Of a stretch of DNA of 25,710 nt, positions 3,887 through 23,742 are shown one piece after another. The notes beneath the pieces were generated by a model. That model was not told where the DNA came from. It searched no databases and saw only the letters and a list, made by a program, of their open reading frames with translations. Within the stretch, counting starts at the first letter, position 1. Each line of letters begins with the position of its first letter. The stretch comes from a virus. Position numbers and translations under genes: made by a program. The stretch is taken from the IMG/VR virus record IMGVR_UViG_3300049595_005447, positions 1 to 25,710 of that record; one strand, given 5' to 3'.

Positions 3887-3897
3887 GTTTGAAAGTG

Positions 3898-3971
3898 ATC
3901 CTCCGGCCGGCGCTGCCCCGGCATGGTCTCCTTTACGAGAGGAGTGCATTGCTGACCTCTGCCACGGAGGA
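3898..3971 (-). tRNA. tRNA-Thr(CGT)
   Basis: Perfect acceptor TCCTCCG, anticodon stem CTCCT/AGGAG with loop CTCGTAA, T-loop GGCAGCG. CCA not encoded. Confidence 0.85.
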
Positions 3972-3979
3972 ATCTGAAA

Positions 3980-4056
3980 TGGTGCTCCCGCGAGGACTCG
4001 CACCTCGAACCTCCGCCTTCGCAAAGCGGCGTGCAGAACTCTTACACCTCGGGAGC
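3980..4056 (-). tRNA. tRNA-Arg(GCG)
   Basis: Perfect acceptor GCTCCCG, loop TTGCGAA with a mismatched closing pair, T-loop TGCGAGT. CCA encoded. D-arm reduced to a GTG/CAC stem. Confidence 0.82.
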
Positions 4057-4062
4057 TAAAAA

Positions 4063-4137
4063 TGGTGCGCCATGCCGGTGCTGCCCCGGCGCCCGCGGTT
4101 TGGAAGACCGCCGTGCTTGCTGTTACACCAATGACGC
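4063..4137 (-). tRNA. tRNA-Gly(TCC)
   Basis: Anticodon stem GCGGT/ACCGC with loop CTTCCAA, T-stem GCCGG perfect, T-loop GGCAGCA, one G-U in the acceptor. CCA encoded; A73. Confidence 0.86.
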
Positions 4138-4142
4138 GAAAA

Positions 4143-4217
4143 TGGTGGCTGCGTCCGGTATCGCGCCGGACTCCCTTCGTCTTCAGCGAAGTGCTAATCT
4201 ATCTCAGCTACGCAGCC
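4143..4217 (-). tRNA. tRNA-Phe(GAA)
   Basis: Perfect acceptor GGCTGCG, anticodon stem CTTCG/CGAAG with loop CTGAAGA (normal T33), T-loop CGCGATA. A73, CCA encoded. Confidence 0.88.
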
Positions 4218-4219
4218 AG

Positions 4220-4293
4220 TGGTCCCTCCGCGCGGTATTGCGCCGCGGTCTCTCGCTTATCGGGCGAGGGCTCTGCTTTTGAGCTACGGAGGA
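4220..4293 (-). tRNA. tRNA-Ile(GAT) with C33
   Basis: Anticodon stem CTCGC/GCGAG with loop CCGATAA, so position 33 is C. D-stem GCTC/GAGC with loop AAAAGCA, T-loop CGCAATA. CCA encoded. Confidence 0.83.
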
Positions 4294-4300
4294 ATGAAGA

Positions 4301-4374
4301 TGGTCGCCCGACGAGGTAACGCTCCTCGGTCTGCCGGATGTGAGCCGGTCGCTCTCCTTTTGAGCTATCGGGCG
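4301..4374 (-). tRNA. tRNA-Val(CAC)
   Basis: Perfect acceptor CGCCCGA, anticodon loop CTCACAT, D-stem GCTC/GAGC with loop AAAAGGA, T-loop AGCGTTA (A54/T58). A73, CCA encoded. Confidence 0.87.
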
Positions 4375-4382
4375 AATGAAGG

Positions 4383-4456
4383 TGGCACCCGCACCCGGTA
4401 ATGCTCCGGGGTTTCCTGGTTGAGAACCAAGCGTGCTGCTATTGCACCATGCGGGC
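4383..4456 (-). tRNA. tRNA-Glu(CTC)
   Basis: Anticodon loop TTCTCAA, D-stem GTGC/GCAC with loop AATAGCA, T-loop AGCATTA. G73 and a G1-U72 wobble, as in Glu(TTC). CCA encoded. Confidence 0.85.
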
Positions 4457-4458
4457 GT

Positions 4459-4533
4459 TATCCCTGGCGAGAGTTGCACTCGCATCTGATCCTTTAGGAG
4501 AGGATCGCTCTAAGTCTGTTGAGCTACAGGGAC
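4459..4533 (-). tRNA. tRNA-Arg(CCT)
   Basis: Anticodon stem ATCCT/AGGAT with loop CTCCTAA, D-stem GCTC/GAGC with loop AACAGACTTA, T-loop TGCAACT. G1-U72 wobble. CCA not encoded. Confidence 0.84.
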
Positions 4534-4543
4534 GTGAGAAAAG

Positions 4544-4628
4544 CGGAGCGCCAAGGACTCGAACCTTGGACACCATTGCTGGTGCGACTGTTTTCAAGAC
4601 AGCGTCCTCGGCCAGCCGGACGCGCTCC
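4544..4628 (-). tRNA. tRNA-Ser(TGA), canonical loops
   Basis: Loop CTTGAAA, a variable arm, canonical T-loop TTCGAGT and canonical Ser D-arm (GGCTGGCCGAG, with GG). Perfect acceptor GGAGCGC, G73, CCA not encoded. The only Ser gene of normal D/T-loop type. Confidence 0.88.
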
Positions 4629-4638
4629 GTTTGTGAAA

Positions 4639-4713
4639 TGGCTCCTCCCCTTGGCATCGCACCAAGCTCACACCGCTTAACAGGCGGGCCGCACACTCTG
4701 TGCGTTGAGAGGA
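4639..4713 (-). tRNA. tRNA-Asn(GTT) with a minimal D-loop
   Basis: Anticodon loop CTGTTAA, T-loop TGCGATG, G73, CCA encoded. The D-arm is GCAC/GTGC around only 5 nt (AGAGT), much shorter than usual. Confidence 0.82.
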
Positions 4714-4758
4714 ATGCTTCGCGCGAAAGCGCTCACCGAAAACCGCGGAGCGCATTCC
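4711..4758. other. Compact structured element inside the tRNA array
   Basis: Ends GGAATGC and GCATTCC pair perfectly over 7 bp. Inside is GCGC-GAAA-GCGC (a GNRA hairpin if read on plus), which competes with a GCTC/GAGC stem. At 48 nt it lacks a recognisable anticodon or T-arm. It fills the largest gap in the array and overlaps the 5' end of Asn by 3 nt. It may be a tRNA remnant or small RNA. Confidence 0.35.
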
Positions 4759-4781
4759 GCATAGCCGCCGGAGCGGCAATT

Positions 4782-4856
4782 TGCTCCCGGCAGGAATTGC
4801 ACCTGCGTCGTTCCGTTTAGAAGGCGGATGCCTGTGGTCTGCTCGGCCACGGGAGC
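4782..4856 (-). tRNA. tRNA-Arg(TCT)
   Basis: Perfect acceptor GCTCCCG, anticodon loop CTTCTAA, T-loop TGCAATT, D-loop with GCAGA. CCA not encoded. Confidence 0.85.
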
Positions 4857-4866
4857 TTCAATGAAA

Positions 4867-4941
4867 TGGTCGCGCGCCTCGGTGCTGCCCCGAGTGTCTC
4901 CTCGTCCCAAGCGAGGCGGGTTGCTGTCTCCCTCGCGCGCG
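4867..4941 (-). tRNA. tRNA-Pro(TGG)
   Basis: Perfect acceptor CGCGCGC, anticodon stem CCTCG/CGAGG with loop CTTGGGA, T-loop GGCAGCA. CCA encoded. T-arm identical to Pro(CGG). Confidence 0.88.
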
Positions 4942-4951
4942 ATATTGAAAA

Positions 4952-5028
4952 TGGCGGCCTGTGCGGGCATTGCTCCCGCGACCTTCCGCTCGACAGGCGG
5001 CTGCTCTTCGTAGCTGAGCTAACAGGCC
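4952..5028 (-). tRNA. tRNA-Asp(GTC)
   Basis: Acceptor GGCCTGT perfect, anticodon loop CTGTCGA, D-stem GCTC/GAGC with loop AGCTACGAA, T-loop AGCAATG. G73, CCA encoded. Confidence 0.87.
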
Positions 5029-5033
5029 AAGGA

Positions 5034-5122
5034 TGGTGGGTTGTGTCGGTAACGCTCCGACGCTGGTCCGGCTGGACATCCGCTTTACAGGCGGCTCGCG
5101 ATCTTTACGCGGCTACCAACCC
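5034..5122 (-). tRNA. tRNA-Tyr(GTA), long variable arm
   Basis: Anticodon loop CTGTAAA, variable-arm hairpin GTCC/GGAC, T-loop AGCGTTA, A73, CCA encoded. The long arm is normal for bacterial Tyr. D-stem CGCG/CGCG. Confidence 0.85.
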
Positions 5123-5126
5123 GAGA

Positions 5127-5198
5127 TGGTTGCGGGACGTGGAGTCGCACCACGATAGGGGAGCTTATGAGACTCCTCTGGTTCTCAACCTTCCCGCG
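5127..5198 (-). tRNA. tRNA-Met(CAT), initiator-like acceptor, minimal D-arm
   Basis: Anticodon loop CTCATAA. The acceptor starts C1 opposite A72, the mismatch typical of bacterial initiator tRNA. The anticodon stem lacks the usual three G-C pairs. D-arm is GGTT/AACC with a 3-nt loop. T-loop TGCGACT. CCA encoded. Could be fMet, elongator Met or Ile(CAU). Confidence 0.75.
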
Positions 5199-5207
5199 AT
5201 TTTGAAA

Positions 5208-5282
5208 TGGTGGACCGCCACGGCTTTGCACCGTGCTCTCCCGCTTGCGAGGCGAGTGACCTCCTGAATGGTCGAGCGGCCC
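5208..5282 (-). tRNA. tRNA-Ala(CGC)
   Basis: Anticodon loop CTCGCAA, G3-U70 alanine identity wobble, D-stem GACC/GGTC with loop ATTCAGGA, T-loop TGCAAAG, A73, CCA encoded. Confidence 0.87.
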
Positions 5283-5292
5283 ATGAAATTGA

Positions 5293-5365
5293 TGGCGGGG
5301 GCGGGAATCGAACCCGCTCATTGACGGCTTATGAGGCCGCTGCCTTCCCACCTGGCTCCCCCGCG
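5293..5365 (-). tRNA. tRNA-Met(CAT), canonical T-loop
   Basis: Anticodon loop CTCATAA, T-loop TTCGATT, D-loop with GG. The 5' end CGCGGGG resembles initiator tRNA, with C1 unpaired to position 72. The 3' end register is uncertain by 1-2 nt. Confidence 0.75.
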
Positions 5366-5376
5366 ATTTGAAGAAA

Positions 5377-5450
5377 TGGCACGGCGTCTCGGTGCTGCCC
5401 CGAGCCCGCAAGGTTTTGGAGACCAAGCTGCGCAAGCTGGCGCCCGCCGT
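5377..5450 (-). tRNA. tRNA-Trp(CCA)
   Basis: Anticodon loop CTCCAAA with a weak (3-pair) stem, D-stem GCGC/GCGC with loop CAGCTT, T-loop GGCAGCA, G73 as in Trp, CCA encoded. Confidence 0.8.
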
Positions 5451-5468
5451 GTTGTGGGTATTTGAAAG

Positions 5469-5542
5469 TGGTGCGGTCAGCCGGAATTGCACCGGCATCG
5501 CCTGATTGGCATTCAGGCATCCTGCTCTTGGACGATGACCGC
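5469..5542 (-). tRNA. tRNA-Gly(GCC), first gene of the array
   Basis: Perfect acceptor GCGGTCA, anticodon stem CCTGA/TCAGG with loop ATGCCAA, D-loop AAGAGCA, T-loop TGCAATT. CCA encoded. Most promoter-proximal tRNA if the array is read on minus. Confidence 0.88.
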
Positions 5543-11610: not shown

Positions 11611-11834
11611 TACCGCTGCTTTCTGCGTTGTGGCTTCGCCTTCCCCAACGCTCCGCCGTGCTGAATGATCTGGAGCATCGCACCCAGACCAAACCCCTGC
11701 GGCATCGCGCGTTCCTGCTCCCAGTTCTCCAGCGAGCGCCGCGACACGCCGAGCCGGTCCGCAGCCTCCTGCTGCGTGTAGTTGTTCTGCTCGCGCCACG
11801 CGACGAGCGTTTTTGCGAAGTCACGATGTTTCAT
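11610..11834 (-). CDS. XRE-family helix-turn-helix regulator
   Basis: 74 residues starting MKHRDFAKTLVAWREQ. A complete HTH_3-type domain is visible: YTQQEAADRLGVSRRSLENWEQ with the typical turn GVSRR, followed by MPQGFGLGAML. The start overlaps the stop of the DUF429 gene (ATGA) and the stop overlaps the next start (TAATG), so all three are one transcriptional unit. It may autoregulate this cassette; no operator is identified. Confidence 0.88.
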   Translation of the reverse strand: MKHRDFAKTLVAWREQNNYTQQEAADRLGVSRRSLENWEQERAMPQGFGLGAMLQIIQHGGALGKAKPQRRKQR

Positions 11835-12550
11835 GTCCTTCGAGGGATAAGAATTCGCATCGGTAATCCGTGCAAGCCGAACGCGGGCGTTTCGGTGATT
11901 TCGAAGAGGCTCCGCTGCGCCGCGAGGAACAGCACACAAGCATCCAAAATGTCATCGCGCGCTGACACAGAACGCGCATATTTCCCGCACGCTGCGTTAT
12001 AGAGGTCATCCAAGCGCACGTCTTCCCGCTTCAGAAGGACAAGCCGCGCGCGTAATCCATCGGGATTCTTTTTCCCAATCGGAACTGGCGATCCACGCAG
12101 CCACAGGAAGCAGAGTTCGGGGTGCGATTCGGCTACAACTGTTTGCGCCTCGGCACTGCTTGCGAGAAAGGAATTCACTTCGTTGATCTTTTCCCGAAGT
12201 GCATGGGCCTGGCGCGAAATGCCCTTGGATGTGAGTCGGCGACTCAAACTGCTCGCTCGGGCATGATCGGGTTCGGCTAGCGCATCGGCTATCGGCACCC
12301 GAAATACAGTGCATGATCGGCGACCGAGGCGAGCTTGCGCCTCGACATCACATTTGCGCGGAAACTGAGACGGATGCGATGGGACGCCGATGGGGATGTC
12401 CACAAGTATCCGCTTCGCTGCTCGGTGCTCATTCCACAGTGCGACGAAACTCTCGTACGCACGATACCGCAGGGTGTCTCCCTGATTCCAAACAGCGAAC
12501 CAGCCGTGAGGGCAGCCATCCACACCAACGAAGTATGCGTGCTTTGACAT
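11831..12550 (-). CDS. DUF429 protein (predicted RNase H-like nuclease)
   Basis: 239 residues starting MSKHAYFVGVDGCPHGW. Family features in order: the Asp-containing GVDGC strand, LVDIPIGVP, a KCDVEAQARLGRR segment, SKGISRQAHALREKINEVN, ESHPELCFLWL and the C-terminal RDDILDACVLFLAA. These acidic positions are the predicted RNase H-fold active site; the family's substrate is unknown. It is the first gene of the DUF429-XRE-DUF6933 cassette and is divergent from the ParB-like gene, with only 12 bp between the two starts, so promoters must lie within the opposite coding sequence. Confidence 0.88.
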   Translation of the reverse strand: MSKHAYFVGVDGCPHGWFAVWNQGDTLRYRAYESFVALWNEHRAAKRILVDIPIGVPSHPSQFPRKCDVEAQARLGRRSCTVFRVPIADALAEPDHARASSLSRRLTSKGISRQAHALREKINEVNSFLASSAEAQTVVAESHPELCFLWLRGSPVPIGKKNPDGLRARLVLLKREDVRLDDLYNAACGKYARSVSARDDILDACVLFLAAQRSLFEITETPAFGLHGLPMRILIPRRT

Positions 12551-12562: not shown

Positions 12563-13366
12563 GTGAAGATCCACTGCGCCCACAATGCCCTCGTCGATCC
12601 GGCGACGCTCAAGCCGAATCCGGTTAATCCGAACCGGCACAGCGCGCATCAGATTCAGTTGCTCGCTTCCATCATTCAGGACCAGGGCTGGCGCGGGCCG
12701 ATCACGGTAAGCAAGCGCAGCGGCCTGATCGTGCGCGGCCACGGCCGCCTCGAGGCCGCGCTGCTCATGGGCGCGGAGAAGGTGCCGGTGGATTATCAGG
12801 ACTACGCGAGTGAGGCGGAGGAACTCGCCGACCTGCTCGCCGACAACCGCCTCTCGGAACTCGCGGAACTGGATGAGGACGACCTGAAGCGCGTCATCGA
12901 AAGCATCCGCAGCAGCGATCCCTCGTTCGACGTGGAACTTACCGGCTTCATGGAAGACGAAATCGCCCGTCTCTACGATGAGCAGCCGGAAGATGACGTG
13001 GAGACGGTGCCGCGCATGGAGATTCAGGCGTTCGAGCACCACGACTACCTTGCCTTCTTCTTTCACGACCTTCGCGACTGGATGCTCGCGCTCCAGCTCC
13101 TCGGCGTCCGCGAAGTGGATTTCTCGATCACCCGCAAAACCAAGAAAATCGGCCTCGGCCGCGTCCTCCATGGAAAACGTCTCCTCGAACTCGCCCGCCG
13201 TGCTGCCGCCGGCGGAAATCAACCTGCTCTCCCCGAAGGACTGGCCGGAACTGGCTCCGCTGAGCCTGCGCCTGGTCATCATGAGCCGCAGCCGCCCGCG
13301 GTCGATCACCAGCCACCGCCTGTTTCCGGCGGCGACACTCGTCGTTCCCGAAAGCGAGCTGGCTGA
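12563..13366 (+). CDS. ParB/sulfiredoxin-fold domain protein
   Basis: 267 residues from a GTG start. The N-terminal ParB-like nuclease domain is clear: LKPNPVNPNRHSAHQIQLL, WRGPITVSKRSG, the signature VRGHGRLEAALLMG, VPVDYQDYASEAEELADLLADNRLSELAE. A second part (YLAFFFHDLRDWM to KKIGLGRVLHGKRLLE) is common in phage members. The last ~65 residues are low-complexity and lie over the glycosyltransferase start, so they may be poorly constrained. Phage proteins of this fold are often encoded near DNA-modifying enzymes; the next gene fits that. Confidence 0.83.
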   Translation: MKIHCAHNALVDPATLKPNPVNPNRHSAHQIQLLASIIQDQGWRGPITVSKRSGLIVRGHGRLEAALLMGAEKVPVDYQDYASEAEELADLLADNRLSELAELDEDDLKRVIESIRSSDPSFDVELTGFMEDEIARLYDEQPEDDVETVPRMEIQAFEHHDYLAFFFHDLRDWMLALQLLGVREVDFSITRKTKKIGLGRVLHGKRLLELARRAAAGGNQPALPEGLAGTGSAEPAPGHHEPQPPAVDHQPPPVSGGDTRRSRKRAG

Positions 13367-14000
13367 TTACGCCTCCGTCCCGCTGGAGAAAGTCACCCTC
13401 CCCGACGCGGTCAGCGGCGTCAGCGCGGTGCGAAACTGGATCATCGCTCACTTCAAGGAGGACGCGCTCGTGATGCTCGACGACGACATCACCGCCTGCG
13501 TCTGCATGGTGTCGCTGCGCTGCCGCAAGCTCTCGACCGACGAGACGCTGGCCATGCTGGAAAACTCCGCCTACGGAGCGCGTGGTGCCGGGGCGCGGCT
13601 GTTCGGCTGGCACCAGCGCAGCGATCCCCGGCTGCTTCAGCGCAATGATCCGTTCGGTGTGCATCACTGGGTCGGCGGCGCGGTGGGTGTGGTCCGCGAT
13701 GCGAACGGCGGCGTGCCGAAGTGGGATGGACTGCTCAAGTGTAAGTGCGACATCGACGCGACCCTGCAAGAGCTGATGGACAATCGCCTGGTCTTTAACG
13801 AGGCCCGGTTTTGTTTCGTCCAGGAGCGGGACAAGAACCTCGGCGGCAATTCGCTCTTCCGGTCCGCCGACCGCATCGCGGCGGAAAAGCGTTACCTCAA
13901 GCGGAAGTGGAAGGCGCACATCCGGTTCGAGAGTTACCAGAGCCAGGACAAGACCGCGATGGATGTGCAGCGCCGACAATCCGTCTCCCTCTCGGCATGA
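13170..14000 (+). CDS. TET-associated-type glycosyltransferase-like protein
   Basis: 276 residues if started at the ATG at 13170. The opening strand LRLVIMSRSRPRSITSHRLFP, then LVVPESELADY, GVSAVRNWI and the DxD-like LVMLDDDITAC resemble the GT-A glycosyltransferases found beside TET/JBP oxygenases and other DNA hypermodification genes in phages. The second half carries FGWHQRSDPRLL, VHHWVGGAVGV and a CKCDIDATLQEL segment. The later ATG at 13281 would cut off the first strand, so the earlier one is chosen despite a ~197-nt overlap with the ParB-like gene. No TET/JBP gene is in the window. Family fit good, substrate unknown. Confidence 0.65.
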   Translation: MENVSSNSPAVLPPAEINLLSPKDWPELAPLSLRLVIMSRSRPRSITSHRLFPAATLVVPESELADYASVPLEKVTLPDAVSGVSAVRNWIIAHFKEDALVMLDDDITACVCMVSLRCRKLSTDETLAMLENSAYGARGAGARLFGWHQRSDPRLLQRNDPFGVHHWVGGAVGVVRDANGGVPKWDGLLKCKCDIDATLQELMDNRLVFNEARFCFVQERDKNLGGNSLFRSADRIAAEKRYLKRKWKAHIRFESYQSQDKTAMDVQRRQSVSLSA

Positions 14001-14002
14001 AA

Positions 14003-14054
14003 ATGGAGCCATTCAGCAATGGACAAAACGCGGGGACGACGACGAGGGGAGGGC
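14003..14054 (+). promoter_or_regulatory. Short copy of the recurrent upstream element (R0)
   Basis: Contains AATGGAGCCA as in R2 and ends GACGAGGGGAGGGC just before ATG, like R1 and R2. It lacks the TTTCGCGCCAA block. It provides a strong ribosome-binding site that supports the ATG at 14055. Confidence 0.45.
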
Positions 14055-14696
14055 ATGTCCAAGTCACCCTCGCACGACCGCTCGCGGCACCCCTCAACAC
14101 CCTCCTTTCTTTTTGGCCTCACGTTCTTGGCGAACGAAAATCGAGACATGCGATTTCTAACTAAACGCGGTTACGAGTTTGGCGAGGTGTCCTCGGCGAT
14201 GCAGAAAGCCATCCGTCGGGGAGATACTCGCCTTGCGGGTTATTGGGCGCTGGAACTCTGGGCCAGCGGCTACGGCAACTATGTCTGGAAGCGGTTGCTT
14301 ACTGTGAGCGCCGAAGATTGTTGGGGGATTCTGACTCAGGAAGTGAAGGCGCTGCACGACAGCTACGCGCTCGTGAACGCCACCGTGCCGGCGAAGCAGC
14401 CGAAGGGCCGCATCTTCATCAGCAAGGCCGTGATCCTGCTGTGCGCGGCGAAGAAGAACCGCGACGCGGACCATTTGCAGAACTTTGTCTATGACCAGTG
14501 CGCAGGGCTGGATGCGGACAAGCTGGCTGCGGATTTGGAGAAAGCGGGCCGTGAGAGAATCCCCGACTACGCCTTCGACTGCCACACGCAGAAGGGCCGT
14601 AAGATGGGCAAATCTAAAGCGGAGTTCTTCCGCGATGAGCAGGCGGCGCTGGAGCCGTTCCAGCCGGGGTTGTTCGACGATCTCATTGACGGCTGA
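14055..14696 (+). CDS. Stand-alone MgsA/RarA C-terminal-like domain protein
   Basis: 213 residues from the ATG preceded by GAGGGGAGGGC; an internal ATG at 14148 (MRFLTKRGYEFG) is the alternative. The core GYEFGEVSSAMQKAIRRGD...YWALELWASGYGNYVWKRLL...AEDCWG resembles the C-terminal, tetramerising part of MgsA/RarA (pattern: xxSAxxKxIRxxDxxxALYWLxxM...EDIG), but no AAA+ domain is attached. RarA-type proteins act at stalled replication forks. A C-terminal Phe-rich tail (FQPGLFDDL) resembles a sliding-clamp-binding peptide (QxxLFDDL), supporting a replication role. Moderately sure of the domain. Confidence 0.6.
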   Translation: MSKSPSHDRSRHPSTPSFLFGLTFLANENRDMRFLTKRGYEFGEVSSAMQKAIRRGDTRLAGYWALELWASGYGNYVWKRLLTVSAEDCWGILTQEVKALHDSYALVNATVPAKQPKGRIFISKAVILLCAAKKNRDADHLQNFVYDQCAGLDADKLAADLEKAGRERIPDYAFDCHTQKGRKMGKSKAEFFRDEQAALEPFQPGLFDDLIDG

Positions 14697-14720
14697 ATTG
14701 CATCGTGGCAAGGATCTTCC

Positions 14721-15437
14721 GTGCGTATCGCAGCGTGGAATCTTGGTCATCAAACATACGAGAAGGAAGTCCCCACTCAGTTTTTTGATGCTGTAGCGCT
14801 CCTTCATCCGGAGGTGCTCGTGCTGAACGAATACGTTTATGGCGAAAAGCACGCGGAAAAAATGCGCGCAGGGCTTGAACGAATCGGATTTCCTGCGGTT
14901 AGCGTTTCACCGCGCATTCCCGGACAGAACCAAGTGTTGCTTGCCTCCCGCGCTCCCCACTTGAGCGGCGATTTGGTCGGGCCTGCTACAACGCCTGCCG
15001 CAACCGTCAATTTCCTGCACGTAGCCATGTCCGACCTTGAGGTTGTGGGTATGCGTGCGCCCGCATACTCGAACAGCAGCCAACTGGAAGACTACTGGAC
15101 GGAAACAGAAAGTCTGATCATGCGAACCGTAACGCGGCGCATCGTTTTCATTGGCGACATGAACTGTGACCCGGACAGACCTCTAAAGCCAGGGGGACGC
15201 GCGCTCAAGCGACTTCGGGATGCCGGTTGGCTGATTCCGACGCCAATCGGCGAATGGAGTTTTATTGGAAAAGACGGAACCAAGTTTTCGCGCATAGACC
15301 ACTGCATTTGCAGTCCAGCGCTTGTGCGTCCAATCGCAACTTACGTCTACAGAATCAATGGTCTCATTCTCGCGGGACAGACTTCCGATAAGGCGATTTC
15401 AGACCACGCTGCTTTGATTTTGGATGTCGGCGTCTGA
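14721..15437 (+). CDS. Endonuclease/exonuclease/phosphatase (EEP) family protein
   Basis: 238 residues from a GTG start with AAGGA 8 nt upstream. The EEP fold motifs are present in order: IAAWNLG (WN, residues 6-7), VLVLNEY with the metal-binding Glu (37), VFIGDMNCDPDRP, SRIDHCICS and the terminal ISDHAALILDV (catalytic SDH). Family members hydrolyse phosphodiester or phosphomonoester bonds in nucleic acids, lipids or small molecules. The compact length with no extra domain suits a DNA- or RNA-acting phosphodiesterase, but the substrate cannot be read. It is followed by about 250 nt holding repeat elements. Confidence 0.85.
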   Translation: MRIAAWNLGHQTYEKEVPTQFFDAVALLHPEVLVLNEYVYGEKHAEKMRAGLERIGFPAVSVSPRIPGQNQVLLASRAPHLSGDLVGPATTPAATVNFLHVAMSDLEVVGMRAPAYSNSSQLEDYWTETESLIMRTVTRRIVFIGDMNCDPDRPLKPGGRALKRLRDAGWLIPTPIGEWSFIGKDGTKFSRIDHCICSPALVRPIATYVYRINGLILAGQTSDKAISDHAALILDVGV

Positions 15438-15496
15438 GCGAGCCTCAGCCCATATCACCATACCACCCGCGGCTGCCGACTCTTTTGCGGCCGGAT

Positions 15497-15530
15497 AAAT
15501 CGAAGGCCAATTTAGGGCGATAAACGAGCG
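15497..15530 (+). repeat. AAATCGAAGGCCAA...GCGATAAACG repeat, copy 1
   Basis: Shares AAATCGAAGGCCAA, TT, GCGATAAACG and GC with 23672-23704, at the same spacing within one base. Unlike copy 2, it has lost the right arm of the palindrome. It sits in the gap between the EEP gene and the next operon, where an operator or promoter is expected. Confidence 0.6.
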
Positions 15531-15590
15531 GTGGCGGTCACGGACATTTTCCGCCAATGGCGCGGGTTGATAGCAGGCAAATGGCTTGGC

Positions 15591-15690
15591 TCATCTTTCG
15601 CGCCAAGCGGCCCTTCGTCGGCCAAATGGAGCGTTCATTTGGTGCGCCAAAACGGATGGCTTCCCGCGAAAACGGGTACGAGGCAAGGGC
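15591..15690 (+). promoter_or_regulatory. Recurrent upstream element R1
   Basis: Starts TCATCTTTCGCGCCAA, contains the dyad CCAAATG-7 nt-CATTTGG, then GGTGCGCCAAAA, and ends ACGAGGCAAGGGC directly before an ATG. Its relatives are at 17371 and 21111. The last segment is the ribosome-binding site; the dyad looks like an operator. Confidence 0.65.
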
Positions 15691-15933
15691 ATGATTACGC
15701 AACCCATCAACGCCCCAGCCGGCAGGCGCACTGAATTTGTCGGCACCTTCATCAAAGCCTCGGGCGCGGCGCGCACGATGCGCTTCACGACCTCGCAGGA
15801 CAAACTGCGCGGCGGCGGTTTGATCACCGTCTTCGACGTGGAACGTGGCGGTCTGCGCAAGTTCAACCTCACCACGCTCGTTGGACGGCTGAGCGCTGTC
15901 ACGCCGGACGGGCAGCTTTCTTTCTGCGCCTAA
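15691..15933 (+). CDS. Small phage protein with a possible DUF2693/SH3-like fold
   Basis: 80 residues starting MITQPINAPAGRRTEF. The pattern (FIKASGAARTMRFTTS, then LITVFDVERGGLRKFNLTTLVG) resembles small phage proteins in which a short beta-barrel ends in xVxDxEKGxxRxFxxDxV, as in DUF2693. No catalytic residues are evident. Start chosen from the GAGGCAAGGGC ribosome-binding site; an upstream extension reads through the repeat element and is rejected. First gene of the operon running to the DNA ligase. Confidence 0.65.
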   Translation: MITQPINAPAGRRTEFVGTFIKASGAARTMRFTTSQDKLRGGGLITVFDVERGGLRKFNLTTLVGRLSAVTPDGQLSFCA

Positions 15934-15949
15934 ACTCCGCACACTGCGT

Positions 15950-16366
15950 ATGCACGACCCCATTCGCTTTATCCTCGCCGGGAACGCGCTTTTCACGGTC
16001 GAGAACACCACCACGGGCAACCGCTTCACTTTCAAGGTGCGCAAGCCCGATGACACGAAGCCTTACTTCGTGAGCGTCCTGACCGGCCCCAACAACGAGA
16101 GCGACTACGCCTTTCTCGGCACGGTCTTTACTCCCGAGCGTTACCACCACGGGCGGCGGTCGCGCATCGCCCAGGATGCGCCGAGCGCGAAGGCGTTCGA
16201 GTGGCTGTTCCGGCATTTGAGCGCGGGACGGTCGCTGCCGCCGCAAGTGCGGCTCTGCCACTGCGGGAAGTGCGGGCGCTGCGGCAAGACGTTGACCGTG
16301 CCCGCGTCGGTGGAGTCGGGCTTCGGCCCCGAGTGCATCAAGGCCATCGAAGGAGGCAGGGCATGA
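15950..16366 (+). CDS. DUF6011-like zinc-ribbon protein
   Basis: 138 residues. The N-terminal part (MHDPIRFILAGNALFTVENTTTG, then RFTFKVRK, then YFVSVLTGPNNESDYAFLGTV) is a conserved small domain in phages and plasmids. The C-terminus carries a treble-clef-like zinc site CHCGKCGRCGKTLTVP...SGFGPEC, the hallmark of DUF6011. Function unknown; probably a nucleic-acid-associated accessory protein. Its stop overlaps the next small gene (ATGA). Confidence 0.8.
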   Translation: MHDPIRFILAGNALFTVENTTTGNRFTFKVRKPDDTKPYFVSVLTGPNNESDYAFLGTVFTPERYHHGRRSRIAQDAPSAKAFEWLFRHLSAGRSLPPQVRLCHCGKCGRCGKTLTVPASVESGFGPECIKAIEGGRA

Positions 16367-16446
16367 ACGCGCTCCGCCGGTGGCTGCACGCCCTTTTCAC
16401 GCAGGTGTTCGCCGACCTCGGCGTGCTGCTGCGCAGCCTAGAATAG
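16363..16446 (+). CDS. 27-residue amphipathic miniprotein
   Basis: Begins MNALRRWLHALFTQVF and ends LLRSLE. It has an excellent ribosome-binding site (AAGGAGG) and an ATGA overlap with the DUF6011 gene, which is why I call it. It would form one amphipathic or membrane-associated helix. No known family; could be a lysis- or host-takeover peptide, but that is speculation. Confidence 0.5.
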   Translation: MNALRRWLHALFTQVFADLGVLLRSLE

Positions 16447-16469
16447 AAACCAAAACCAAGAACCAAACG

Positions 16470-17351
16470 ATGAATGCCATCACCAAGCCGATGCTCGCCG
16501 GCAAATGCGAGCACCCCGATGCCCTGAGCTTTCCCGTGCTCGCCACGCCGAAGCTCGACGGTATCCGCTGCCTGAAGATCAACGGACGCGCCCTGACGCG
16601 CTCGTTCAAACCCGTGTCCAACCGCTTCACGCGCGGGTGGATTGAAGCCAACCTGCCCGACGGCCTCGACGGAGAGCTGATCGTCCGCGGCACCACGTTC
16701 AGCGAAACCGCCGGCCACATCGGGCGCGAGTCCGGGGAGCCGGACTTCACCTTCGCCGTGTTCGACTACGTGAGCGAAGGCGTCGACGTGCCGTATGCCT
16801 GCCGGATGCAAGAACTCCAGCGCCTGCCGGAGTTTCAGCACGTCAAGAAAATCCTGCCCGTGGAGATCCGCGATGCCGTGCAGCTCGCGGAGTATGAAGA
16901 GCAATGCCTCAGCGAAGGCTACGAGGGCGTGATGATCCGCACGCCGGATTCGCCCTACAAGTGCGGGCGTTCCACGGAACGCGAGGGCTGGCTGCTCAAG
17001 ATCAAGCGATTCGAGGATGACGAGGCCGTGGTGCTGGAGACGTATGAGGGACTGAGCAACCTGAACCCCGCCGAGCGTGATGCGTTCGGGCGCACCACGC
17101 GCTCAAGCTGCAAGGAAAACAAGGTTGGACGCGGCGAACTGGGCGGGTTCGTGGTGCGGGTGATGAGCACGGGCGTGGAGTTCCGGCTCGGCTACAACCA
17201 TGTGCTCGGCGGGGTCGACCGCGTGACCCTGTGGGAGCAGAGGGCGTCGCTCCCCGGCAAAATCGTGAAGTTCATGCACCAGCCCAGCGGGGCGAAGGAT
17301 GCGCCGCGGTTTCCAAAGTTCATCGGGTTCAGGGAGGCGTGGGACTTGTGA
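16470..17351 (+). CDS. ATP-dependent DNA ligase (T7-type)
   Basis: 293 residues, the size of a compact phage ligase. It seals nicks via a lysyl-AMP intermediate. Motif I is PKLDGIR with nucleophile Lys28; then DGEL (67-70), FAVFDY (95-100, motif III/IIIa), EGVMIR (152-157, motif IV) and LLKIKR (175-180, motif V). The remainder forms the OB-fold with GELGGFVVRV. The start lacks a Shine-Dalgarno and follows AACCAAAACCAAGAACC-like sequence. It likely supports phage replication. Confidence 0.93.
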   Translation: MNAITKPMLAGKCEHPDALSFPVLATPKLDGIRCLKINGRALTRSFKPVSNRFTRGWIEANLPDGLDGELIVRGTTFSETAGHIGRESGEPDFTFAVFDYVSEGVDVPYACRMQELQRLPEFQHVKKILPVEIRDAVQLAEYEEQCLSEGYEGVMIRTPDSPYKCGRSTEREGWLLKIKRFEDDEAVVLETYEGLSNLNPAERDAFGRTTRSSCKENKVGRGELGGFVVRVMSTGVEFRLGYNHVLGGVDRVTLWEQRASLPGKIVKFMHQPSGAKDAPRFPKFIGFREAWDL

Positions 17352-17370
17352 AAGCCGCACCAATGGAGCC

Positions 17371-17496
17371 AAGCGTTAGCAGGCTTCCGGCTTACACCCA
17401 TCTTTCGCGCCAACCGAAGGCTGCCACGAACAATGGCGCAAAATTTGGCGATCAATTTGGTGCGACACACGAAGGCCGGCTGGACGAGGGAAGGGC
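17371..17496 (+). promoter_or_regulatory. Recurrent upstream element R2
   Basis: AATGGAGCCA (shared with R0), then CATCTTTCGCGCCAACCG and AGGCTGCC (shared with R3), then AATTTGGCGATCA, ATTTGGTGCG and GACACACG, ending GACGAGGGAAGGGC before the ATG of the amidoligase gene. It occupies the whole intergenic gap. Confidence 0.7.
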
Positions 17497-18513
17497 ATGT
17501 CTGCAACCACCATCAACAGTCGTGCGCCAAAGCTACGCGGTCTGCGTAGTCTGCGCAAACCCGAGGACGTCGAGGCGATGAACATCCGCTTCGGCGTTGA
17601 ACTTGAAACCAAAGTGCCGCGCACCTGCGGCCTCGCCGTGGGCGGCTACCACGCCGGGTATCCGGTGAGGAGCGCCATTGCAACCAGCGGTCAGCAGCTC
17701 GTCGCGCCCACCTTCCACGGTGCGACGTGGCGGGCTGACCGCGACGGCTCAATCACCTGCGAAGCGAACGAGATGCCTTGTGAATTCGTCTCGCCCATTC
17801 TCCACGGAGCCGAGGGTGTCGAGAACCTCTGCAGGTTCATGGAATGGATGACCGCGATCGGCGCGACCGTCGATAACTCGTGCGGCGTCCATATCACCGT
17901 GGGCATCGAGTCGGTGATCGGCAGCCGGGAGGCGGGCAAGATCAGCGACTTCGTGCGCAAGCTCGCCCACATCGCCCAATGGCACGCGATGTCGCTCTAC
18001 GGCCAGACGGGCACTGGCCGCCACCTGAGCCGCTACAGCCACACGCTCGCCGCCGACGTGGAGCGCCACATGCGGAAGATCATCAACACGAGCAGCGTGG
18101 CGGACAAGGAAGCCGCGGCGGCCGCGTGCGGACGCGGGATGCTGAACTTCCAAAAGGCGTTCAGGATGCGGGGCGATGAGTATGTGGGGGCGGTGGAGTT
18201 CCGCGTGTTCGCCGGCACCACGAGCCTCGTGAAAGTCCTGCATCACTTGGGCTGCGTGCTCGGGCTGTGCCGCCGGGCAGCGCAAGTGCAGTGCCTCGGG
18301 GCGTTCCGGAAGAACAAGCTGCAAGCCAAGCGCACCCAGACCGCCGAGAGCGCGGTGCATTTCCTCTGGGATTACCTCGGGTGGACCGGTGGCGCACGGC
18401 CCTGCGCGTTGGGGCTGTTCGGCCGGCTGCACCGTGAGTTTGCCAGCTACGGCCCCGAGGCAGTGCGCCTCTGCCGCAAGTTCGATGAGCGCTACCCGGA
18501 GGCCCGGCTGTGA
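17497..18513 (+). CDS. Putative amidoligase (Amidoligase_2-like, COOH-NH2 ligase)
   Basis: 338 residues. The opening FGVELETK (residues 32-39), WRADRDGSI with EFVSPIL (the D-G-S/E-x-V-S-P pattern), CGVHITVG and the later VEFRVFAGTT match amidoligases of the glutamine-synthetase-like fold. These join an amino group to a carboxylate using ATP in peptide or small-molecule modification. The next gene encodes a class II glutaminase that could supply ammonia, a known partnership for this family. Start chosen from the R2 ribosome-binding site; MNIRFGVE at 17578 is an alternative. The target is unknown. Confidence 0.78.
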   Translation: MSATTINSRAPKLRGLRSLRKPEDVEAMNIRFGVELETKVPRTCGLAVGGYHAGYPVRSAIATSGQQLVAPTFHGATWRADRDGSITCEANEMPCEFVSPILHGAEGVENLCRFMEWMTAIGATVDNSCGVHITVGIESVIGSREAGKISDFVRKLAHIAQWHAMSLYGQTGTGRHLSRYSHTLAADVERHMRKIINTSSVADKEAAAAACGRGMLNFQKAFRMRGDEYVGAVEFRVFAGTTSLVKVLHHLGCVLGLCRRAAQVQCLGAFRKNKLQAKRTQTAESAVHFLWDYLGWTGGARPCALGLFGRLHREFASYGPEAVRLCRKFDERYPEARL

Positions 18514-18550
18514 CCCCCAGCTTTTTCCACCTTCAACCCATCCAATTCTT

Positions 18551-19210
18551 ATGTGTGTCGTCCTAATCTGTCCGCCCAAGCAACGTCCTGACCTGACAAT
18601 CCTCCGAGCGTGTCACGCCGCCAACCCGCACGGCGCGGGCGTGGCGTGGCGCGAGAAGCGCCAGATTTATTGGAAGAAGGCGCTCACGCCGGGAGAGTTG
18701 AACCATCTGATTGCGCAGGTGCCCGGCGAGGTGATCATCCATTTCCGCTGGGCCAGCGTCGGCGGGGTGGAGCCGCTGCTCTGCCATCCGTTCCCGGTGA
18801 CCGCCGCGGCGGCGCTCGGTTACGAGGGGCTGTGCAAGTCCGTGCTCTTCCACAATGGGACGTGGGGCAATTGGGAGGCGGCGCAGGAGGTGATCGGCGA
18901 ACTCGACGGGCCGATGAGCGACAGCCGGGCGGTGGCCGCGCTGTTGCATCACAAGGGCACGAAGCTGCTCAAAAAGCTGCCGGGCCGTTGGGCGGTGATG
19001 ACGCCCAAGGAGATTGAGCTGTTTGGGGACTGGCAGCCGTGGCGCGGGTTCCTCGTCAGCAACACGAGCTTTCTGCCCTACCTCACCGCGAGCGCCGGGC
19101 GCGCATCCTTGTCGACGCAAACTCCGCACTCCGCGGAGCCACGCCGCAAACCGAGTCCAACGGGAAACATGGGTCAGCTCCCGCTGGCGCTCGGCAATCC
19201 AAAAGCCTGA
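18551..19210 (+). CDS. Class II glutamine amidotransferase-like protein
   Basis: 219 residues starting MCVVLICPPKQRPDL. Cys2 would become the N-terminal nucleophile after Met removal, as in class II (Ntn) glutaminases. Supporting features are HAANPHGAGVAW, VIIHFRWASVGG (the R/W-A-S/T-x-G strand), HPFPV, LFHNGTWGNW (the NG-oxyanion region) and SDSRAVAALL. It could hydrolyse glutamine and pass ammonia to the amidoligase encoded just upstream. The C-terminal ~40 residues are low-complexity. There is no clear ribosome-binding site; the leader is pyrimidine/A-rich. Confidence 0.78.
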   Translation: MCVVLICPPKQRPDLTILRACHAANPHGAGVAWREKRQIYWKKALTPGELNHLIAQVPGEVIIHFRWASVGGVEPLLCHPFPVTAAAALGYEGLCKSVLFHNGTWGNWEAAQEVIGELDGPMSDSRAVAALLHHKGTKLLKKLPGRWAVMTPKEIELFGDWQPWRGFLVSNTSFLPYLTASAGRASLSTQTPHSAEPRRKPSPTGNMGQLPLALGNPKA

Positions 19211-19230
19211 CCTGCATCCACAGAAACCAA

Positions 19231-19833
19231 ATGAAGTTGTTCAAACTGATCGCCAGCAAGGCTGGCAAAGTCGTCTTCGATGATCGCATCGAGGCCGAGA
19301 ATCCGCGCACGGCGCGCGAGCAGATGAAGAGTCTGCTCGGGCTCCAGTCGCTCACCGGCGTGGTCTATTCGATCACGGAAATCCCCGTGGAACTGATCCG
19401 CGAGATCGTCGCCACGAAAGTGCTCGAAGTCGTGGGCAGCCGCCGGAGTGGCGGTGCCGCCATCGACGTGAGCAAGATCGTCGGGGACGCCGCCAATGTG
19501 GCCGTGGCCGACCGGCTGCGACCCATCGAGCAGCGGCTCGCCGCGCTCGAAGGCCGGCAGACCGCGGCCCCGGCGACCGGTGCGAACGGGGCACACTCCA
19601 ACACCAGCCGTCGGTTCGACGCCTTTCAACGCGATTCCACGCGTCCCCGTGAGGCGGCTTCCACGGCTTCCAACGTGCGGCCGGCACCGCCCGTGCCGGC
19701 CCCGCAGCCGGGCACGGACTGGCGGGCGGTGAAGAAGCTCTACAAGCAGAACCGCAGCCCGAAGCAGACGGCGGCGCACTTCGACCTGTCGGTCAACACC
19801 GTGAAGGCGCGGGCACGCCGGGAGGGCTGGTAG
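19231..19833 (+). CDS. Protein with C-terminal helix-turn-helix
   Basis: 200 residues starting MKLFKLIASKAGKVV. The N-terminal half (FDDRIEAENPRTAREQMKSLLG and a helical IPVELIREIVATKVLEVVG) is not recognised. A central region (DRLRPIEQRLAALEGRQ) suggests a short coiled coil, followed by a Pro/Ala-rich linker. The last ~30 residues form a resolvase-like HTH (SPKQTAAHFDLSVNTVKARARREGW). It may bind DNA; the partner is unknown. The leader ACAGAAACCAA lacks a Shine-Dalgarno. Confidence 0.65.
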   Translation: MKLFKLIASKAGKVVFDDRIEAENPRTAREQMKSLLGLQSLTGVVYSITEIPVELIREIVATKVLEVVGSRRSGGAAIDVSKIVGDAANVAVADRLRPIEQRLAALEGRQTAAPATGANGAHSNTSRRFDAFQRDSTRPREAASTASNVRPAPPVPAPQPGTDWRAVKKLYKQNRSPKQTAAHFDLSVNTVKARARREGW

Positions 19834-19835
19834 CC

Positions 19836-19994
19836 GTGGTCGAAGTCACCCGCTACGGCACGCGCCATTGGGCCGTGTGGCTCGACGGCGAACTGGTGGT
19901 GGTCGCGCTCTACAAAAAGGGCGCGGCCACCGTGGCCGGCAAGCTGCGCGAGCTGGTCACCTTGAAAGGAGGCACGCATGCGGCTGCGGCTTGA
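19836..19994 (+). CDS. Small conserved phage/plasmid protein
   Basis: 52 residues from a GTG 2 nt after the previous stop. Sequence VEVTRYGTRHWAVWLDGELVVVALYKKGAATVAGKL matches a small family with the pattern RYGxxHWAVxxxGxLVxVxVYKKGAxxVA; function unknown. Overlaps the start of the AAA+ gene by 17 nt. Confidence 0.65.
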   Translation: MVEVTRYGTRHWAVWLDGELVVVALYKKGAATVAGKLRELVTLKGGTHAAAA

Positions 19995-20667
19995 ATCGCG
20001 AAACGGCCACAAGCCGGCTCGGTTGAAACCCGAGCCGAAGCCGTCCCCGATGAACTGGCGTCCGCAGACTGCGGAAGCCCTGATCGGTCAGGCCCGCGCG
20101 GTCTGCGCCGCCCAGGTCGCGAAGGCGCGCCGGCTGCGCGACACCCGGACGGCCGCGTGCAAGCTCCTGCTCTACGGTCCGCCGGGCGTGGGCAAGACGA
20201 CCGTCGCGGAAATGGTGGCGCGCGAACTGACCGGCACGGCGCTCGGCGTCGAGAGCTACAACGGCAAGGAAGTGACCGTCGATGCCGTGCGTGGCTGGAT
20301 GGAGACGCTGCCTTATGGGTCGCTGTTCTCGAACTGGTCGGTGAAAATCATCAACGAGTTGGACCGCTGCAGCCGTGACGCACAGGACATTCTCCTGACG
20401 TATCTGGACAAGCTGCCGCCGGGCAAGGCGCTGATCGGCACAAGCAACCTGCAGCTTGACCTGCTGACGGAGCGGTTTCACACGAGGTTCCAGTCGATCA
20501 AGCTGACGGCACCGGGGACGGAGGAAATCGCCGAGTTTCTCCGGGCGCACTGGAAAGTGCCGCGCGACGTGGCCCTGCGCATCGCAGTCGGCAGCGGCGG
20601 CTGCGTGCGGGCGGCGATGGCCGATCTGGAGACATGGCTCGACGTGGAAGGAGGCGGTCTGCTGTGA
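19978..20667 (+). CDS. AAA+ ATPase, clamp-loader/RarA-like
   Basis: 229 residues. Walker A is LLLYGPPGVGKTT (about 63-75), Walker B is KIINELDRCS with Asp-Arg in place of the usual Asp-Glu, then sensor-1-like LIGTSN and a C-terminal small helical domain. The order resembles clamp-loader subunits and RarA. AAGGAGGCACGC precedes the ATG. The separate MgsA-C-like gene at 14055 could be its functional other half, but this is speculative. Likely a replication or DNA-maintenance factor. Confidence 0.8.
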   Translation: MRLRLESRNGHKPARLKPEPKPSPMNWRPQTAEALIGQARAVCAAQVAKARRLRDTRTAACKLLLYGPPGVGKTTVAEMVARELTGTALGVESYNGKEVTVDAVRGWMETLPYGSLFSNWSVKIINELDRCSRDAQDILLTYLDKLPPGKALIGTSNLQLDLLTERFHTRFQSIKLTAPGTEEIAEFLRAHWKVPRDVALRIAVGSGGCVRAAMADLETWLDVEGGGLL

Positions 20668-20930
20668 GCGCGACACCACTCCGCCGTTTCCTCGTCTATC
20701 GCAGCGCAAAATCCCGGCAGCACCTGTGCGTGTGCGCCGCGCGCGATCGTCGTCACGCCCTGTCTATCGCCCGGCAGATGTTCCCGCTGGAGCGCACCGC
20801 CTTCGCCGTGCCGGAGAGCAGACCGCACTCCAACGTGAGGGGGAACGTCCGCTGCCGGCACTGCGGGCGACCAAGCGAGGACGGCTCTGGCGTGTGCGCC
20901 CGCTGCCATCAGACCTATGAAGTGGCTTAG
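20664..20930 (+). CDS. Small zinc-ribbon protein
   Basis: 88 residues from a GTG that overlaps the AAA+ stop (GTGA) with GGAAGGAGG upstream. The N-terminal segment (RRFLVYRSAKSRQHLCVCAARDRRHALSIARQMFP) is a small domain; the C-terminus has two CxxC knuckles (CRHC, CARC). No known function. Ends overlapping the next start by 14 nt. Confidence 0.7.
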   Translation: MSATPLRRFLVYRSAKSRQHLCVCAARDRRHALSIARQMFPLERTAFAVPESRPHSNVRGNVRCRHCGRPSEDGSGVCARCHQTYEVA

Positions 20931-21237
20931 CACCTATCGCGGTTACGAGATCCGCCATAGCACCGTGCGCGACGGCGACGGCTTCGCCCGCTACGACGCC
21001 GAGATCAAGGTGGACGGGCAGTGGCATTTCGCCAGCAGCGAGGCTCTCGACGAGGACACCGTGGAACGCGACCTCGATGACTTCATCGGGAAGATCGAAG
21101 CGGCAGCGACTCATCTTTCGCGCCAACCGCAGGCTGCCGCGCCATTTGGCGATCACAAATGGTGTTCACAAAAATTGGACACACGCGGCCCGCGCGTACG
21201 AGGCAAGGGACGCAACCTTAACTCACCTTATGCCTGA
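20917..21237 (+). CDS. Small hypothetical protein reading through repeat R3
   Basis: 106 residues. The first ~65 (MKWLSTYRGYEIRHSTVRDGD, then DAEIKVDGQWHFASSEALDED, then DLDDFIGKIEAAA) look like a compact conserved domain. The last ~40 are encoded by the recurrent upstream element R3, so the natural end may once have been near 21110. Function unknown. Confidence 0.65.
   Translation: MKWLSTYRGYEIRHSTVRDGDGFARYDAEIKVDGQWHFASSEALDEDTVERDLDDFIGKIEAAATHLSRQPQAAAPFGDHKWCSQKLDTRGPRVRGKGRNLNSPYA
21111..21212 (+). promoter_or_regulatory. Recurrent upstream element R3
   Basis: TCATCTTTCGCGCCAACCG, AGGCTGCC, then the dyad CCATTTG-7 nt-CAAATGG, TTGGACACACG and ACGAGGCAAGGGA. Same order as R1 and R2, but located within the 3' part of the preceding frame, with about 18 nt before the next ATG. 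Confidence 0.65.
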
Positions 21238-22165
21238 ACAAGAACATACCCTGCCACCGGATGCCGCGACCGCGGCAGACCATCGCAATCCACGCCGTCG
21301 CAACAACGGCGCATCAACCAACGGCGACGCGCCCGATCTCGGTGTGCTCGTCACTCCGCAACCGCACCACGCCCTCGATGACCTCGTGCTCCACGCCGAC
21401 GTGCGCAACGACATCGCCGCCGGCCTGCGCGCCATCCAGCGCCGCGGCGACCTAGAAGCAGTCTGGAGCATCAGCCGGCTCCAGCCGCAAGACGGCCGCT
21501 GCATCCTGAACTTCCACGGCCCGCCCGGGACGGGCAAGACGCGCGCCGCTCTGGGCGTGGCCCTGTGCCTCGATCAACCGCTTTACCAAGTCGATTACAG
21601 CGCGGTGATCTCGAAATACTTGGGCGACACCGCCAAGCACATCGCCGCCTGTTTCAAGCGGGCGAGCGAACTCGGCGCGGTGCTCTTCTTCGATGAAGCG
21701 GATTCGCTGCTCTCGCGCCGTGTGAACATCGGTGAGAGCTGCGCGACCTCGATCAATCAGAACCGGAACGTGCTCATGCAGGAACTCGATCGGTTCAACG
21801 GCGTGGTGATCGTGACGACGAACCTGTTCGGCAATTACGACCCGGCGCTACTCCGGCGCATCTCGCGCCACATCAAGTTCCGGCTGCCGGACAAGGCGAT
21901 GCGCCGCCGCTTGTTTGAGCTGCATCTGCCCAACCGCGAGCGCGTGTTCGCCGACCTGAACATCCTCGCCACGGAAGCGAAGGGACTCTCCGGCGGGGAC
22001 ATCCTGAACGTCTGCCTGAACGCAATCTATGCCGGCTCCACGGCGGACGATGCCGCGCAATGGAAAGTCACCGGAACCGACCTGCTCGCCGAGATTACCA
22101 AGGTGAAGTCCGCCCAAAGCGACCACCGCACCACTTTTTGCCGCGAAGATACGCACTCCGCGTAG
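21230..22165 (+). CDS. AAA+ ATPase (FtsH/Vps4/spastin-like core)
   Basis: 311 residues. After a ~50-residue disordered N-terminus: LVLHADVRNDIAAGL, Walker A FHGPPGTGKTRAA (about 95-107), the pore-type loop ISKYLGDTAKHI, Walker B AVLFFDEADSLL, sensor-1 VIVTTN, then PALLRRISRHIKF with arginine-finger candidates and a small helical domain (LSGGDILNVCLNAIYAG). The core resembles AAA proteins that remodel protein complexes. No protease is attached. Target unknown. Confidence 0.85.
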   Translation: MPEQEHTLPPDAATAADHRNPRRRNNGASTNGDAPDLGVLVTPQPHHALDDLVLHADVRNDIAAGLRAIQRRGDLEAVWSISRLQPQDGRCILNFHGPPGTGKTRAALGVALCLDQPLYQVDYSAVISKYLGDTAKHIAACFKRASELGAVLFFDEADSLLSRRVNIGESCATSINQNRNVLMQELDRFNGVVIVTTNLFGNYDPALLRRISRHIKFRLPDKAMRRRLFELHLPNRERVFADLNILATEAKGLSGGDILNVCLNAIYAGSTADDAAQWKVTGTDLLAEITKVKSAQSDHRTTFCREDTHSA

Positions 22166-23534: not shown

Positions 23535-23742
23535 GCCCATCGTCCTGACGATCTTCGGCAACGAGCGATGCGTGGTCATGCTCGATGATCTCGAAGCCGC
23601 CGCGAACGCCATCCATCAGAAGGCCGTTCGTGAACGGGAGACGAGCGGCAATCCATCCACCCTCGGCGCGGAAATCGAAGGCCAAATTCGCGCGATAAAC
23701 GCGCAATTTGGCCCTCTCGATACGGAGGCTCCAAGGCCATGA
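23524..23742 (+). CDS. Small hypothetical protein containing an operator-like palindrome
   Basis: 72 residues (MKTEPIVLTIFGNERCVVMLDD...). Overlaps the previous gene by 11 nt and the next by 4 (ATGA). Its 3' third encodes an unusual dyad (23680-23713). No family recognised. Confidence 0.5.
   Translation: MKTEPIVLTIFGNERCVVMLDDLEAAANAIHQKAVRERETSGNPSTLGAEIEGQIRAINAQFGPLDTEAPRP
23680..23713. promoter_or_regulatory. GGCCAAATT palindrome (repeat copy 2)
   Basis: GGCCAAATT, one base, GCGC, GATAAAC, GCGC, AATTTGGCC: an almost perfect inverted repeat of 13-bp arms. The left arm and centre, with AAATCGAA before it, match 15497-15530. It lies inside a coding frame, just upstream of the ligase-like gene. 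Operator-like. Confidence 0.6.

Follow-up and report, generated by a model that had tools for sequence, protein, structure and literature searches.

We found that a 25,710-base phage fragment from IMG/VR (the window) carries three full copies (R1, R2 and R3) and one half-copy (R0) of an element of about 110 bases, each on the gene strand at the head of a transcription unit of a single gene cassette. The element recurs in related, uncultured phages in the same orientation and position, with its conserved sites at nearly constant spacing; it is restricted to the cassette and is homogenised within a phage, and neither RNA structure nor a coding signal could be detected in it. Our overall explanation, which we hold with about even confidence, is that it is a cis-regulatory switch read by a phage protein, most likely the helix-turn-helix (HTH) protein of the cassette. 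Recognition at the level of DNA, the identity of the reader and the direction of its action (activation or repression) are the parts of this explanation that we infer.

Recurrence of the element in the window and in related phages

The copies in the window are:

14000-14062, plus strand: R0, a 3' half-element with WTGG sites and GAGG box, without box A, in the 54-nt gap ahead of gene 14055
15585-15702, plus strand: R1, a full element ahead of gene 15691, at the head of the 15691-DUF6011-DNA ligase unit
17392-17506, plus strand: R2, a full element ahead of the amidoligase gene, at the head of the amidoligase-glutamine amidotransferase (GATase)-HTH-AAA unit
21105-21211, plus strand: R3, a full element ahead of the AAA ATPase gene 21230, with its start inside the 3' end of open reading frame (ORF) 20917-21237

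The original prediction had named a sequence common to R1-R3, and this was confirmed. CATCTTTCGCGCCAA occurs exactly at 15592, 17399 and 21112, each time on the plus strand, and no near-miss was present elsewhere in the window when up to three mismatches were allowed. At three mismatches, 11 of 100 shuffled sequences also gave three matches; in R1-R3, though, all are exact. The pattern GCCAA-N19-WTGG was found six times against 0.46 expected, a number attained by none of 100 shuffles, and four of these six matches are R1-R3, including one reverse-strand reading at R3. The same three copies were independently recovered by a profile made from 20 copies from distant phages, from which all copies of the window's clade, and those of L084/L085, had been excluded. 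This distant-only profile matched R2 with an E-value of 4.8e-14, R3 with 1.2e-11 and R1 with 5.8e-5, and on the reversed window, which served as control, it gave no match under E 0.9.

R0 had been described as sharing the ends of the element. Its 3' half was indeed matched in an element-model search (model positions 54-116, E 4e-4) and box A is lacking; with the distant-only profile R0 was not significant (E 2.2). We regard R0 as credible because L080-L085 and L134 have half-copies at the equivalent place ahead of the same gene. Most of the long gaps between genes in the window's cassette are occupied by elements. ORF 20917-21237 enters R3 without a stop at the junction, and the same was seen in L135, as if the element had replaced the end of the gene. 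On the 5' side of R1, a stretch of 33 nt (15497-15529) has 88% identity to 23672-23704, coding DNA near the 3' end of gene 23524, and may be the remnant of a duplicated gene.

Related viral loci were collected by an amidoligase search (51 loci) and through the 80-aa gene after R1 (9 loci), leaving 54 contigs after removal of repeats, which were scanned with two profiles (lineage A and lineage B) at E 1e-3. The element was detected at 132 places in 52 of the 54 contigs, several of which are near-duplicates and do not represent 52 independent cases, and in all 132 it lay on the gene strand. The largely conserved order is ParB-like, glycosyltransferase, [R0], gene 14055, [R1], 80-aa gene, DUF6011, DNA ligase, [R2], amidoligase, GATase, HTH protein, AAA ATPase, [R3], AAA ATPase, so that elements stand at the unit heads before gene 14055, gene 15691/ligase, the amidoligase and the second AAA gene; the gene order is altered in L086 and L128. 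Model searches of complete records gave about 1-6 elements per record, nearly all within one cassette of 5-8 kb, and one or two per record for the lineage-B core. The wider motif search thus bore out the placement at unit heads and the single strand; in full records it led to one cassette and not to a phage-wide signal.

The lineage-A cassette is present in Chthoniobacter flavus Ellin428 (Verrucomicrobiota). Its 79-kb prophage record contains four elements at 46.0-51.7 kb, and the 7.8-Mb host genome gave the same four places plus three chance-level matches. A host-wide repeat was rejected: among 288 Verrucomicrobiota genomes, full lineage-A elements were found only in C. flavus. Five weak matches from this genome scan (L139-L143) look chance-like. 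Within the sampled phylum, another genome (G357) has a lineage-B cassette with two elements. For the C. flavus amidoligase match, G004:C60:241375-242391 (L190), one TGA was reported inside the aligned span and may simply be the terminal stop.

Comparison of the copies revealed that those at different sites of one phage have an identity of 0.66, while between clades same-site identity was 0.590 versus 0.589 for different sites. R1 paired with R2 of the same phage beat all or nearly all other pairings (permutation fractions 0.008, 0.017 and 0.008). The distant phages of lineage B have a strong clade-specific version of their own ahead of both ligase and amidoligase, and a 55-nt 3' block is near-identical at two genes. 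On the evidence of these comparisons, the homogenisation would fit joint change of the sites and of a reader common to them. Taken with the anatomy given below, the expectation of a recurrent, phage-specific element of single orientation, which ends in a ribosome-binding site (RBS), heads several transcription units and is homogenised between them, was upheld.

Anatomy of the element and tests for RNA structure and coding

In an alignment of 41 full copies, box A (TCA-N8-GCCAA), three direct WTGG sites and a GAGG were invariant or nearly so, with the spacing GCCAA-24-WTGG-12/13-WTGG-16/17-WTGG in most copies. The cores contained 124 WTGG compared with 39 in shuffles, and the opposite orientation, CCAW, was depleted. 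The WTGG region is AT-rich, with 40% GC versus 63% for the window. The parts of R1, together with the dyad of R3, are:

15592-15606, plus strand: R1 box A, CATCTTTCGCGCCAA, in which GCCAA (15602-15606) is an inverted TTGGC half-site
15626-15659, plus strand: R1 direct WTGG sites, ATGG (15626-15629), TTGG (15639-15642) and ATGG (15656-15659)
15680-15693, plus strand: R1 start-associated box (RBS), GAGGCAAGGGC-ATG
15622-15642, plus strand: R1 dyad CCAAATG-N7-CATTTGG, present, not conserved in relatives
21142-21162, plus strand: R3 dyad CCATTTG-N7-CAAATGG, present, not conserved

The final ACGAGG-AAGGG that had been noted at the end of the element is present, and its GAGG is invariant in the 41 copies. 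The distance from the GAGG box to the next gene match has a median of 25 nt, and the start codon often lies at 11 nt, from which we conclude that the box includes the RBS. GAGG is retained where the start codon is 25-30 nt or further downstream, as at R3. The 7-nt-spaced dyads that had been put forward as the operator exist in R1 and R3 and are not a conserved feature: they occur in none of the 39 other aligned copies (2 of 41 overall), and the window holds nine perfect 7-7-7 dyads, of which those of R1 and R3 are two. What is conserved in place of such an operator is a set of WTGG repeats in direct orientation, together with a single inverted GCCAA box.

By eye, a further upstream module, AATGGTGCGG-NN-CGWTAGCAGG, is common to R1 and R2 in the window's clade. 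In L097, L106, L116 and L127, a second repeated stretch, CCGACCATATTGCCATCCCTTG...GGCTGATTACGCGG, lies upstream of the lineage-B core, and in some lineage-B copies it takes the place of box A and of the first sites.

An RNA structure was considered and rejected. Rfam covariance models gave no match over 13900-21400 up to E 5, RNAalifold proposed only five pairs (GCCA/TGGY) with neither compensatory change nor covariation, and a hairpin before GAGG was not above shuffles (mean z 0.17). A small leader peptide (HLSRQPKAA... or the ATG-GTG-AAA... frame) was likewise rejected, the three frames being stopped in 11, 23 and 18 of the 41 copies; 1-nt indels between the sites also speak against it. By eye, the reverse strand of box A resembles a sigma-54 site (TGGCGC-N5-TTGA); this look-alike was dismissed, as it is without the GC of the -12 box and is directed away from the genes.

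Candidate reader proteins and alternative explanations

Two proteins, both named as possible regulators in the original prediction, are conserved beside the element:

19231-19833, plus strand: HTH protein, candidate reader, with a predicted N-terminal beta-beta-alpha-beta domain, coiled coil, disordered linker and C-terminal HTH
11613-11939, minus strand: XRE-type HTH protein, divergent neighbour of the cassette and alternative reader

The evidence favours the first of them, short of proof, as the best candidate reader. The HTH protein was present in nearly all element-bearing contigs that extend past the GATase gene, with both of its ends conserved. Its C-terminus was modelled as a three-helix HTH with weak matches to several HTH families. 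Structural matches were weak (best Foldseek E 0.2, VIA Z 3-6) and serve as leads only; they were to GcrA, NtrC1 and homeodomains for the C-terminus and to ribosomal LX-like proteins, T7 Gp2 and YkzG for the N-terminus. A profile of the protein gave no meaningful match against PDB sequences. Four distant phages found through the HTH protein, L185-L188, are without amidoligase in the fetched stretch and encode a homologue with the same recognition helix, LSVNTVKARIRREGW. In L187, seven TGCCAA/TTGGCA sites lie on both strands within 270 nt between divergent genes, compared with a maximum of four in 300 shuffles. Recognition of DNA is favoured because such sites are used on both strands in L185-L188. 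TGCCAA/TTGGCA clusters occupy the divergent intergenic regions upstream of the HTH-protein operon in L187 (4950-5220) and L185 (2640-3260), and both regions also contain mirrored TATAGAC-like motifs.

In the mechanism that we propose, a single cis-regulatory DNA element, represented by R1-R3 and in part by R0, would stand at the head of every transcription unit of the cassette (glycosyltransferase/ParB-like, DNA ligase, amidoligase-GATase and AAA ATPases). Each copy would offer an inverted TTGGC-type half-site in box A and three direct WTGG half-sites, followed by GAGG where the first gene begins. A DNA-binding protein of the phage, in all likelihood the HTH protein 19231-19833 rather than another, would bind the half-sites and thereby switch the units in concert, so that the cassette would form a regulon of its own.

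Several observations weigh against this explanation. The promoter part of the cassette as originally predicted was not found: there were no sigma-70-like sites in 13900-21400, with a consensus that may not be that of the host, and no conserved -10/-35 pair was seen. WTGG is a short and common motif. The HTH protein has no significant fold match in the PDB, and L189 has an element-like copy (E 7.8e-6) together with an HTH homologue that lacks the C-terminal HTH. Lineage-B proteins have another recognition helix (such as NLRDLNARARREGW), and yet GCCAA is retained there. The XRE neighbour is likewise conserved in most relatives, and gene conversion between copies could, without any reader, give the same homogenisation.

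The element might act as RNA, that is, as a 5' leader controlling translation, in which the AUGG sites would be bound by a single-strand RNA-binding protein or serve as decoy starts. Its constant location on the gene strand, the RBS at its end with GAGG at a median of 25 nt from the next gene match, and a purine-rich, unstructured core with three direct AUGGs agree with such a leader. The Rfam, covariation and hairpin results given above do not, the inverted orientation of box A and the occurrence of TGCCAA sites on both strands in the cluster of L185-L188 point to DNA, and GAGG is kept even with a start codon 25-30 nt or further on; we consider a leader unlikely. That the XRE-type protein is the reader, as a repressor of the cassette, appears rather improbable. 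It is conserved beside the cassette, and its HTH core is about 64-71% identical even in lineage B, matching the conservation of GCCAA/WTGG. XRE operators are usually palindromic, however, whereas no palindrome is conserved in the element, and the TGCCAA cluster of L185-L188 is accompanied by an XRE match that is doubtful at best (E 0.006).

The copies could alternatively be seams of recombination or modular exchange that are homogenised by gene conversion and swap units between phages, with regulation being secondary. The concerted evolution of the copies, the near-identical 55-nt 3' block at two lineage-B genes, the start of R3 within the 3' end of an ORF that runs on into it without a stop and the different gene order in L086 and L128 would all be expected of such seams. 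Against this, gene content and order between the elements are mostly conserved over about 50 phages, and the fixed spacing between half-sites, like the invariant bases, implies that the sequence is recognised; we judge exchange as the primary role to be quite improbable. A chance or compositional artefact, or ordinary intergenic RBS regions, could be suspected in so far as a 15-mer with three mismatches is not rare by itself and the dyads first noted are not conserved. The E-values of the distant-phage profile and the strand bias of 132 of 132 contradict it, as does conservation of the element between phages whose proteins are 55-60% identical, and we regard this possibility as very remote. 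Our preferred reading remains a DNA element read most likely by the HTH protein.

We tentatively suggest, as an unlikely extension of this reading, that the phages represent an undescribed class of cassette-autonomous regulon, in which a cassette for nucleic-acid modification or repair would have its own regulator; this would read, at each unit head, an element of one inverted and three direct half-sites and would coevolve with it. As modelled, the regulator of this class would combine a coiled coil, a flexible linker and an HTH, its weak N-terminal neighbours including the RNA-polymerase-binding T7 Gp2 and YkzG. The class would span a phage group without match in the INPHARED collection, in which 50,697 phage records yielded no relative of the amidoligase or the HTH protein at the thresholds used.

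The cassette and its relation to known systems

Further genes of the cassette are:

12978-13997: TET-associated glycosyltransferase-like protein, with matches to PF20691 and phrog_842 (hydroxymethylcytosine (HMC) glucosyltransferase), adjoining the ParB-like gene
14055-14696, plus strand: gene after R0, phrog_16866, with weak MgsA_C similarity
15691-15933, plus strand: 80-aa gene after R1
16470-17351, plus strand: ATP-dependent DNA ligase, in the R1-headed unit
17497-18513, plus strand: Amidoligase_2 gene after R2
18551-19210, plus strand: class II glutamine amidotransferase-like gene (GATase_6)
21230-22165, plus strand: AAA ATPase after R3

This gene content (glycosyltransferase, ParB-like, amidoligase, GATase, ligase and AAA genes) suggests a role of the cassette in DNA modification or repair, and the protein encoded at 12978-13997 beside the ParB-like gene suggests DNA hypermodification. 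The AAA ATPase 21230-22165 matches PADLOC models of IetA, the ATPase of a described defence system (best E 4e-33). Elsewhere in the window, ARAGORN detected a dense array of 19 tRNA genes on the minus strand (2166-5542), several of them closely spaced. Many of these tRNAs have an encoded CCA followed by TTT, which gives AAATGG repeats on the plus strand that are unrelated to the element.

Verrucomicrobiota are abundant bacteria of soil and water, and little is known of gene control in their phages; in the literature on these phages or on amidoligase cassettes we found no relevant description of such an element. A well-defined element and a candidate reader lie here in one cassette, and their presence in the cultured lysogen C. 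flavus Ellin428 makes the proposal directly testable. Copies that track their own phage over the orthologous position constitute a natural experiment on the joint change of regulator and site, and in dozens of phage contigs that otherwise lack annotation the element indicates where transcription units lie.

T4-type phages likewise have regulatory cassettes that are repeated between genes, the PeSL (promoter early stem-loop) cassettes, which consist of an early promoter and a stem-loop and are thought to aid module shuffling. Unlike these, the element has no stem-loop (no covariation, hairpin mean z 0.17), and no counterpart of the early promoter was detected with the sigma-70 consensus, which may not be the host's. 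The stoperators of L5 follow the consensus GGTGGMTGTCAAG, which was not enriched in the window (16 matches at up to three mismatches versus 12 expected, none exact). In cluster A (L5-like) mycobacteriophages, stoperators are repeated sites of asymmetric sequence to which a repressor encoded by the phage binds (PMC9283540). L5-type stoperators are short single sites across the genome, whereas the elements described here have several sites in about 110 bp and stand at the unit heads of one cassette.

In cluster K mycobacteriophages, the SAS/ESAS are repeated elements of single orientation just upstream of many start codons; some copies are SAS only and some are extended, the extended consensus varies between subclusters, and that paper identifies no reader (PMC3203893). 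SAS has a 13-bp core, GGGATAGGAGCCC, and ESAS consists of 17-bp imperfect inverted repeats with a short variable spacer (PMC3203893). The element differs from SAS in sequence, as GGGATAGGAGCCC had two matches at three mismatches versus seven expected and neither fell at R0-R3, and from the ESAS inverted repeats in being composed of one inverted GCCAA and three direct WTGG half-sites; it is moreover confined to one cassette and belongs to a different host phylum. Like SAS/ESAS, it is located directly upstream of translation starts in gene orientation, with R0 as a short copy comparable to SAS-only copies. SAS/ESAS is the nearest known kind, and the element would work like a start-associated operator set that lies outside the families compared.

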